Shown here one piece after another: positions 24,988-26,763 of a DNA stretch of 64,000 nt. The notes under the pieces were generated by a model, which was not told the origin of the DNA, made no database searches, and worked only from the letters and a program-made list of their open reading frames with translations. The DNA comes from Candidatus Bathyarchaeota archaeon (GTDB taxonomy: Archaea; Thermoproteota; Bathyarchaeia; Bathyarchaeales; Bathycorpusculaceae), in the NCBI GenBank assembly GCA_026014615.1, contig JAOZHZ010000020.1, forward strand, positions 248,001 to 312,000, written 5' to 3'. The position numbers and the translations under genes were made by a program. How positions within the stretch are numbered: the stretch's first letter is position 1; the number at the start of each line of letters is the position of its first letter.

Positions 24988-25773
24988 TTAGCCTACTAGA
25001 AAAGCAAGTGTGTCCTGTTGGAACCGTTTTCCTAACGGTTCATGACCCTTGCCTTCGTAAATTACCAGTTTTGCGTTGGGAATCCCTGAGGCTGTTTCAC
25101 GGAGTAATTCTGCGGGACAAAAATAGTCTCTGTCGCCAGCGACAATTAATGTGGGAATCAAAATGTGGGATAGCTGGTTTCTGCTGTTGTGCATGACTTC
25201 AGCTTTGCCTTCCACAAGCAAGTCCTGTGGGTTTTGGGTGTTTAGTATTCTTGAGCCGAAGATGCTCATGAAAAACGATAACAGATGCCGTTTTACTCGG
25301 TTACCTGTCAACATAGGTGTTAGACTTCTAAACGCTGCTCTGGTTTTTCCTTGACTTGCCAATTGTGCAAATTGCATGTCCAACTTGGCGCCTTCTTCGC
25401 TGAAGCGGTAAGCCGACATTGAAAGGACCAACCGGCGAATTAATGTTGGGTGGTTGGCGGCTAGATGTTGGGCGATTAATCCGCCATAGGATTCCCCGAT
25501 TACATCGACTGGTTCGCCGTTGAAATCGTTTCTAATCACAGCCGCAAAGTCCTCCGCCATATCCATCGTAGAATAGACTTTAGGCAACCCACTTTTTCGA
25601 GAAACCATGAAGATTGTGTAGTGTTTGCCCAAAAAATTGAATTCTTTAGACATTGAACTTGAGAGGTAGTTTCCTGGTCCGCCGCAAAAGATTAACAGTG
25701 ATTTTACTCCTTTGCCGAAGCGGATGTAAGGAACCCCGTTTCTGAAAGTCCCCTTCTCAACCAAAGCTATCAC
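24988..25773 (-). CDS. Alpha/beta-hydrolase
   Basis: 261 residues. The nucleophile elbow is GESYGG, with Ser at its centre. Oxyanion-side FCGGPGNYLS and the acid and histidine of the triad in VAGDRDYFCP and YEGKGHEPLG follow the usual order. An esterase or lipase-like role is likely; substrate unknown. The upstream side faces the wHTH operon, whose palindromic sites lie about 105-150 bases away. Confidence 0.82.
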   Translation of the reverse strand: MIALVEKGTFRNGVPYIRFGKGVKSLLIFCGGPGNYLSSSMSKEFNFLGKHYTIFMVSRKSGLPKVYSTMDMAEDFAAVIRNDFNGEPVDVIGESYGGLIAQHLAANHPTLIRRLVLSMSAYRFSEEGAKLDMQFAQLASQGKTRAAFRSLTPMLTGNRVKRHLLSFFMSIFGSRILNTQNPQDLLVEGKAEVMHNSRNQLSHILIPTLIVAGDRDYFCPAELLRETASGIPNAKLVIYEGKGHEPLGKRFQQDTLAFLVG

Positions 25774-25879: not shown

Positions 25880-25889
25880 TTACTTGTAA
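25880..25889. promoter_or_regulatory. Upstream operator-like site
   Basis: TTACTTGTAA, an inverted repeat with arms TTAC/GTAA. It lies 37 bases upstream of a second copy, and the pair bracket a TATA-like TTTATTA at 25897-25903. Confidence 0.5.
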
Positions 25890-25916
25890 CAAAACGTTTA
25901 TTAGGTAATCTTTTGA

Positions 25917-25926
25917 TTACATGTAA
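25917..25926. promoter_or_regulatory. Downstream operator-like site
   Basis: TTACATGTAA, a perfect 10-base palindrome. It overlaps the region where transcription would begin if the TATA at 25897-25903 is used. A wHTH regulator is encoded about 180 bases downstream, so autoregulation is plausible. Confidence 0.5.
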
Positions 25927-25928
25927 CA

Positions 25929-26069
25929 ATGGTGCTTCAAAATGACGCAAAGGACGTGGAAGAAACTGTTGCTCACAATAAAAATTGTGCCAGTAGTGGG
26001 ACGTATCACATATGGTGGGATTTGCGTTTGATACTCAACAAAGAGGAGCGAAACAATAATGCTGTTTGA
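25929..26069 (+). CDS. Possible small protein, 46 aa, first in the wHTH operon
   Basis: ATG 25929 lies about 30 bases after the TATA-like sequence, which suits a leaderless start, and 3 bases after the palindrome. The product is hydrophilic with one Trp-Trp motif (YHIWWDLRLIL) and no Cys pair. Its last codons overlap the ATG of the next tiny frame, and GAGGAG for that frame lies inside it. No family is recognised, and it could be non-coding leader. Confidence 0.35.
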   Translation: MVLQNDAKDVEETVAHNKNCASSGTYHIWWDLRLILNKEERNNNAV

Positions 26070-26103
26070 ATACTTAACAATAAATCAAAGAATAGGAGGA
26101 TAA
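26059..26103 (+). other. 14-codon frame in phase with the wHTH gene, ended by TAA
   Basis: ATG 26059 has GAGGAG nine bases upstream. The frame runs 14 codons to TAA at 26101-26103 and is exactly in phase with the wHTH reading frame that follows. Its last codons form AGGAGG (26094-26099), the SD for the next gene. It is either a leader peptide coupled to the regulator or the true N-terminus cut by a nonsense codon. Confidence 0.4.
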
Positions 26104-26109
26104 CAGTTA

Positions 26110-26412
26110 ACGCCCAAGATTGCCGAACTAGCAAGCACCTTAGATGCATTGGGGCATCCGTTGAGGCTCCGAATAATAGTCTTGCTTGCAGCCAAAGAGT
26201 TATATCTAAATGAAATAGCCATCGGTCTTGGCGTAAGTAGAGCATTAGTGAAGGTACACCTCAAGAAGCTTGAAAGGGCAGGTATCGTGAAAAGCCGCGT
26301 GGAACTGGTTGAAGGCGAAGCTAAAGCACTTCGTTATTACAAACTTTTGGATTTTGATGTTCATGTTTCTCCACAAATTCTCAGAGAGGCGGTGAAAAAT
26401 AATGGGTGCTAG
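26110..26412 (+). CDS. Winged-helix regulator (ArsR-like) without canonical start
   Basis: About 100 residues. The wHTH core runs from LASTLDALGHPLRLRIIVLL through EIAIGLGVSRALVKVHLKKL (recognition helix) to the wing AGIVKSRVEL...ALRYYKL. Homologous domains need the LDALGHP helix. The first standard start, TTG 26149, lies inside it and lacks an SD, whereas AGGAGG at 26094-26099 points to codons near 26107-26112 (TTA, ACG). I list ACG 26110. Its stop overlaps the next gene by 11 bases. Likely autoregulator of the operon through the palindromes upstream. Confidence 0.72.
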   Translation, partial: TPKIAELASTLDALGHPLRLRIIVLLAAKELYLNEIAIGLGVSRALVKVHLKKLERAGIVKSRVELVEGEAKALRYYKLLDFDVHVSPQILREAVKNNGC

Positions 26413-26581
26413 AGCGGTAATAATTGGGGCTACTTGGTTTGCCATAATGATAATCGTTATGATGTACATTAGCGTCGGAGGGCTAACCTTAGCTACCAGC
26501 ATAGCCACAACATTACTCATTGCAGTTGCTTTCATCGTTACTTTTGGAGTTGCGTTTGGGCTTCAAGAACACCAAGCATAA
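26402..26581 (+). CDS. Small two-TM membrane protein, ends at in-frame TAA
   Basis: 59 residues from ATG 26402, overlapping the wHTH stop by 11 bases, so the two are translationally coupled. Two hydrophobic helices occupy most of it (IIGATWFAIMIIVMMYI and ATTLLIAVAFIVTFGVAFGL). The same frame continues past TAA 26579-26581 for 41 further sense codons. It is a probable membrane partner of the regulator. Confidence 0.65.
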   Translation: MGARAVIIGATWFAIMIIVMMYISVGGLTLATSIATTLLIAVAFIVTFGVAFGLQEHQA

Positions 26582-26707
26582 CTTGACAAAGAAAGCCCCT
26601 CAACCAAAACGTTAGCGCAGCTGTCGACAGAATTCACTGAGATGAAGTCAATGATGAACGACCTTCCAAAGAAGGTTAATGCAATCCAAAAGGAACTGGA
26701 AGAGTAA
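26582..26707 (+). other. In-frame continuation encoding a coiled-coil tail
   Basis: Directly after the TAA the frame stays open for 41 codons and ends in TAA 26705-26707, just before the terminator. It encodes a charged amphipathic helix (TLAQLSTEFTEMKSMMNDL, then PKKVNAIQKELEE), the natural cytoplasmic tail of a two-TM protein. This suggests one ancestral 101-codon gene interrupted by a stop, or readthrough. Confidence 0.6.
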
Positions 26708-26740
26708 ACCCGCCCTTTAGCGGGCTTAACCACTTTTTTA
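26708..26740 (+). terminator. Hairpin plus T-run terminator
   Basis: CCCGC and GCGGG (26709-26713 and 26720-26724) form a 5-bp stem with a 6-base loop. A run of six T follows at 26734-26739. It closes the wHTH operon and also faces the convergent ino1 gene. Confidence 0.6.
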
Positions 26741-26763
26741 TTCACTTAAGATAAAGGAAAGGT

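Follow-up and report, generated by a model that had tools for sequence, protein, structure and literature searches.

Results

Genes and signals at the locus

The window, a 64,000-nucleotide stretch from a metagenome-assembled genome (MAG) of a Candidatus Bathyarchaeota archaeon (G000; 2.6 Mb in 29 contigs, with a completeness of 88.8% and a contamination of 7.4%), carries a compact series of promoter elements, two short frames, an ArsR-like winged helix-turn-helix (wHTH) frame, a frame for a protein with two transmembrane (TM) helices, a helical tail in phase beyond a stop codon, and a hairpin (Table 1). An earlier note on this DNA had described two palindromes flanking a TATA-like box. Both palindromes, TTACTTGTAA and TTACATGTAA (25917-25926), were present with the box between them, and so were the 46-codon frame and the 14-codon frame with an SD-like sequence that the note had listed. 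The terminator that it had proposed as the end of the operon was found as a hairpin with a T run, which was not among the matches of a consensus terminator scan; the hairpin at the corresponding place in the related locus L050 gave a z of -2.57.

Table 1. Positions of the features in the window
Feature	Position	Strand	Remarks
Upstream palindrome TTACTTGTAA	25880-25889	.	Also near the dyad in L057 and L058
Weak TATA-like box TTTATTAG	25897-25904	+	Between TTACTTGTAA and TTACATGTAA; sequence and alignment
Conserved operator GTAAT-N6-ATTAC	25905-25920	.
Extended operator ATTACATGTAA	25905-25926	.
46-codon frame	25929-26069	+	Orphan, window-specific leader
14-codon frame	26059-26103	+	GAGGAG upstream; ends at TAA 26101; chance phase match with the wHTH
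AGGAGG	26094-26099	+	10 nt before ACG 26110; sequence
ArsR-like wHTH frame	26110-26412	+	100 codons plus TAG; ACG for start codon; AlphaFold2 pLDDT 88
2-TM protein frame	26402-26581	+	Cut by TAA 26579-26581 in the TM2-tail linker
C-terminal helical tail (predicted coiled-coil)	26582-26707	+	In phase past the TAA, codon-constrained; ends at TAA 26705
CCCGC/GCGGG hairpin and T run	26709-26739	+	Fold z -2.53 versus shuffles; positional counterpart in L050

The two genes form a conserved operon

A profile of the wHTH protein matched in 14 of the 257 genomes of the class, and a scan of GTDB yielded 22 loci whose titles name Bathyarchaeota, Thermococcus, Staphylothermus, Desulfurococcales, Acidilobaceae, Pyrodictiaceae and Hyperthermus. 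In nearly all loci with enough sequence, the wHTH gene is followed or overlapped by one for a small membrane protein whose C-terminal tail is rich in helix. The intact operon, present in Bathyarchaeia, Thermococcus and Desulfurococcales-type archaea, consists of an ArsR-like wHTH gene (∼100 amino acids) that overlaps or abuts a gene for a 2-TM protein with a helical tail, both behind an operator. The compact operator-wHTH-membrane-protein arrangement recognized in the earlier note, with its pairing of a DNA-binding and a membrane protein, is thus found in relatives as well as in the window. No description of the operon was found in a literature search that covered few subscription journals, and it is apparently a conserved but undescribed archaeal two-gene operon.

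Gene order supports the same position in related genomes. The order gcvH-hydrolase-operon-MIPS of the window recurs in L054, and the order gcvH-operon-MIPS is found in L056 and in genome G002, so that the operon occupies an established slot. It is dispensable, since it is missing in five of the seven genus members, whose gcvH and MIPS genes are close neighbours. The gene between gcvH and the operon in the window (24988-25773, minus strand) is alpha/beta hydrolase-like; its counterpart at the same place in L054 is 71% identical, and neither the G002 nor the L056 locus has it there. A second MIPS-like homologue, 42% identical, lies at G000:C29:160278-161288, and two are present in each genus member searched. 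Genes for ABC transporter ATPases adjoin the operon downstream in L053 and L101 and upstream in L063.

A near-invariant dyad overlaps the promoter

We found a perfect GTAAT-N6-ATTAC dyad upstream of 22 of the 28 wHTH genes (the window being counted and a few loci being near duplicates), compared to 0.00 expected from shuffled controls. Three further loci carry the dyad with one mismatch, for which shuffled controls gave an expectation of 0.23. In the window, the right arm of this dyad overlaps TTACATGTAA, which is contained in the right arm of the extended operator. A counterpart of TTACTTGTAA lies 5' of the dyad, at nearly equal spacing, in the Desulfurococcales/Staphylothermus loci L057 and L058. 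For the palindromes of the window, the pattern TTACWTGTAA gave 3 strand matches versus 0.23 expected. Most orthologues have a TTATATG-like sequence abutting the dyad at the position of the TATA box. The earlier proposal that the palindromes constitute an operator, to be checked by looking upstream of orthologues, therefore needs to be modified: an operator is indeed found there, but the conserved element is the wider dyad.

The perfect dyad occurs only once in the whole of G000, where the reversed control pattern also had one match, which makes other perfect targets unlikely. Both its single occurrence, indicating local regulation, and its overlap with the promoter point to autorepression. The wHTH protein thus probably binds GTAAT-N6-ATTAC as the operator of its own promoter.

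The wHTH gene appears to have lost its start codon and gained a leader

The wHTH of the window matched the Pfam models HTH_5 (43.5 bits versus a gathering threshold of 22) and HTH_20 (38.6 bits versus 27); these were its best Pfam matches, and no PadR model was among them. AlphaFold2 predicted a winged-helix monomer (Table 1) whose PDB matches were ArsR/SmtB proteins, the closest solved structure by both sequence profile and fold being Phr (PDB 2p4w). With the model of the metal-sensing ArsR subfamily NF033788, two orthologues reached 47.4 and 38.6 bits, below the cut-off of 55. An association with defence was considered and dropped, PADLOC giving only wHTH-level similarity to Csa3-type proteins (3e-12) and nothing for the membrane protein.

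Close orthologues begin with ATG or GTG at the position of ACG 26110, and no homologous N-terminal extension precedes this position in close relatives. The phase match between the 14-codon frame and the wHTH, to which the earlier note had attached meaning, is for this reason put down to chance (1 in 3), and TAA 26101 precedes the conserved gene rather than being a nonsense codon within it. While orthologue start codons are located 13 to 65 nt from the operator, ACG 26110 is 189 nt away, and the 46- and 14-codon frames sit in a window-specific stretch of ∼150 to 160 nt that orthologues lack and for which no homologue was detected. By alignment, the apparent lesion at the 5' end of the wHTH gene is the loss of ATG to ACG 26110 together with this leader insertion, not TAA 26101.

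Several other interpretations of this region were tried and rejected. The 46-codon frame has no homologue beyond chance in the 60 other genomes of the family (best match, E 0.107) and was not retained as a gene; the leader, considered as an RNA element, had no structure beyond chance (z +1.08) and no Rfam match, and no second copy indicative of a repeat or mobile element was found in the genome. The first canonical in-frame start after ACG 26110 is TTG 26149, and its use as an internal start would remove predicted helix 1.

A stop codon separates the membrane hairpin from a conserved tail

The membrane partner, with its two predicted TM helices, had no meaningful match in Pfam or NCBIfam, including the HAAS (DUF1700/DUF1129/DUF1048) Pfam models. 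For the L053 protein, AlphaFold2 predicted helices at residues 3-26, 30-53 and 60-90 (mean pLDDT 76, pTM 0.45), and a PDB search with this model gave no match. In orthologues the frame continues past the TM hairpin into the tail with no stop, sense codons standing where the window has TAA 26579, and the relatives compared keep the tail, which often ends in EE. This alignment bears out the earlier suggestion of a nonsense truncation at TAA 26579, which interrupts a conserved protein; the more general proposal of decay by nonsense mutation holds for this codon but not for TAA 26101. The stop falls in a variable linker and leaves both TM helices whole. In the 2-TM gene of L042 (G147:C2), from another genus, we observed an apparent one-base frameshift near the N-terminus; with this second damaged copy, the window is not the only case of loss.

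The earlier note had also raised the possibility that the two stops are used on purpose, making short and long forms of both the regulator and the membrane protein. Both share the phase of coding sequence that is conserved or adjacent, and the tail is under constraint. However, stops are missing at both places in all orthologues, no homologue is seen for the extension before TAA 26101, and the leader showed neither RNA structure nor an Rfam match. Pyrrolysine uses TAG, and TAA is not known to serve for recoding in archaea. We consider programmed stops highly improbable.

Coding constraint and divergence of the window copy

Compared to L050, the wHTH frame differs mainly at third codon positions (26/20/60; Fisher P 9e-9), as does the tail (15/10/23; Fisher P 0.006, reaching 2e-5 across relatives); these P values are guides only, since the relatives have a common history and the tests assume that sites are independent. 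Divergence of the tail does not exceed that of the TM part (dN 0.38 versus 0.45), which, along with the third-position bias, indicates that the tail has been translated during most of its past. Given such codon-level constraint in the wHTH and the tail, the lesions must be recent, reflect an altered use of the copy, or result from a wrong base call.

The last of these would mean that one or both lesions are errors of sequencing, assembly or binning. They are single-base changes, codon constraint is seen on both sides of TAA 26579, and the completeness and contamination of the MAG leave room for such errors. Arguing against this, several independent changes fall in one operon, including a leader of ∼150 nt, while the four neighbouring genes have no internal stops relative to G002 over 1,331 codons, compared to two coding lesions in ∼200 codons of the operon. 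We regard errors as an improbable source of these differences.

An altered but still functional copy is also unlikely, though slightly less so. Here the wHTH would be translated from ACG 26110 behind AGGAGG, helped by the coupled upstream short frames, and the membrane protein would be tailless. The wHTH frame is whole over 100 codons, codon-constrained and confidently folded, the operator dyad is perfect, AGGAGG lies 10 nt before the ACG, and the TAA in the variable linker spares both TM helices. Nevertheless, relatives retain the tail and its frequent EE ending, no canonical in-frame start precedes TTG 26149, and divergence is raised on the window branch. A literature search for efficient ACG initiation in archaea found no precedent, which also speaks against such a use.

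We thus favour, as the likely explanation, that the conserved archaeal operon is present here in a damaged copy, a recent or ongoing pseudogene. In the genome of the window, the leader would have gained ∼150 to 160 nt, the ATG of the wHTH gene would have become ACG, and the TAA would have removed the tail, so that the repressor and the full-length partner are probably not made properly. In its favour, the end branch of the window copy measures 0.45 and 0.58 in the two protein trees versus 0.05 to 0.34 in the nearest group, consistent with relaxed constraint. Among the observations that count against this reading are the SD-like AGGAGG before ACG 26110, the differing placement of the window copy in the two trees, and the codon constraint in the wHTH and the tail, which suggests a loss that is recent or incomplete. 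Third-position divergence also exceeds that of MIPS (0.60 versus 0.335; P 1.5e-6). Neutral decay alone is insufficient to account for this excess, and instead of a simple vertical pseudogene the copy may represent an allele that is older or was transferred.

Discussion

In intact copies, a dimer of the ArsR-like wHTH would probably bind GTAAT-N6-ATTAC abutting its own TATA box and repress the operon. Its co-translated partner combines a helical TM hairpin with a tail helix, for which a cytosolic location is predicted; this protein would most likely hold the repressor at the membrane or release it as the state of the membrane changes. A membrane-sensing role of the pair, as the earlier note had suggested, is plausible.

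Several of the Desulfurococcales-type archaea have a third gene. At 13 loci outside Bathyarchaeia (L064, L066-L068, L071, L094-L097, L099, L100, L102 and L103), the membrane gene is followed by a gene for a protein with an N-terminal TM segment and repetitive beta-type sequence. Two of the eight such proteins tested (L100 and L103) scored above the cut-off for the Toastrack domain DUF4097, two more scored below it, and profile comparison joined the third-gene proteins into two groups. No Toastrack gene adjoins the operon in the window.

Of the known systems, Phr, the heat-shock regulator of Pyrococcus furiosus, is the closest in solved structure. It is, however, ∼200 amino acids long, whereas the operon wHTH has ∼100 and shares its operon with a membrane gene, and the Phr model gave 22 bits versus a cut-off of 320. 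In organization, the operon resembles SdpR/SdpI of Bacillus subtilis, in which a membrane-controlled ArsR autorepressor is bound by its neighbouring membrane partner SdpI (PMC11995493): both pair an ArsR-type regulator, in the operon a probable autorepressor, with an adjoining membrane protein. SdpI, which responds to SdpC, has six TM helices, while the operon partner has two and a tail; no SdpC counterpart was seen, and the SdpR model gave 22.1 bits on an orthologue versus a cut-off of 100.

A further parallel is provided by the bacterial HAAS-PadR dyads with Toastrack, proposed to be membrane-stress switches and an alternative to two-component systems (PMC11237479). Like the operon, HAAS-PadR/Toastrack/PspC dyads combine a small stand-alone wHTH repressor with an adjoining small alpha-helical, membrane-associated partner, and in some archaeal relatives a Toastrack-type gene follows the operon. 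The operon differs in that its wHTH is ArsR-like rather than PadR, and its partner, which has no HAAS/DUF1700 match in Pfam or NCBIfam, consists of a TM hairpin and a tail helix; the term ArsR does not appear in the main text of PMC11237479. We treat both SdpR/SdpI and HAAS-PadR as analogies, since the marks of those families (a match to the SdpR model, a six-TM partner, a PadR-type wHTH, a HAAS domain with its GxP motif) are lacking in the operon.

The damaged copy in the window is in itself a minor curiosity. Few transcription switches linked to the membrane have been described in archaea. The value of this operon lies in an operator that stays near-invariant across Bathyarchaeia, Thermococcus and Desulfurococcales-type archaea, in the consistency of its gene order, and in a possible link to envelope stress through Toastrack. 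Together, these make direct testing feasible in a tractable archaeon with an intact copy. We tentatively propose, as a possibility that falls somewhat short of being probable, that a membrane-stress switch, so far undescribed, is common to archaea of several phyla, in which an ArsR-like autorepressor is held or released by a 2-TM coiled-coil protein, with Toastrack in some lineages and the window copy in the midst of being lost; such a switch would be an independent archaeal counterpart of the HAAS-PadR dyads.
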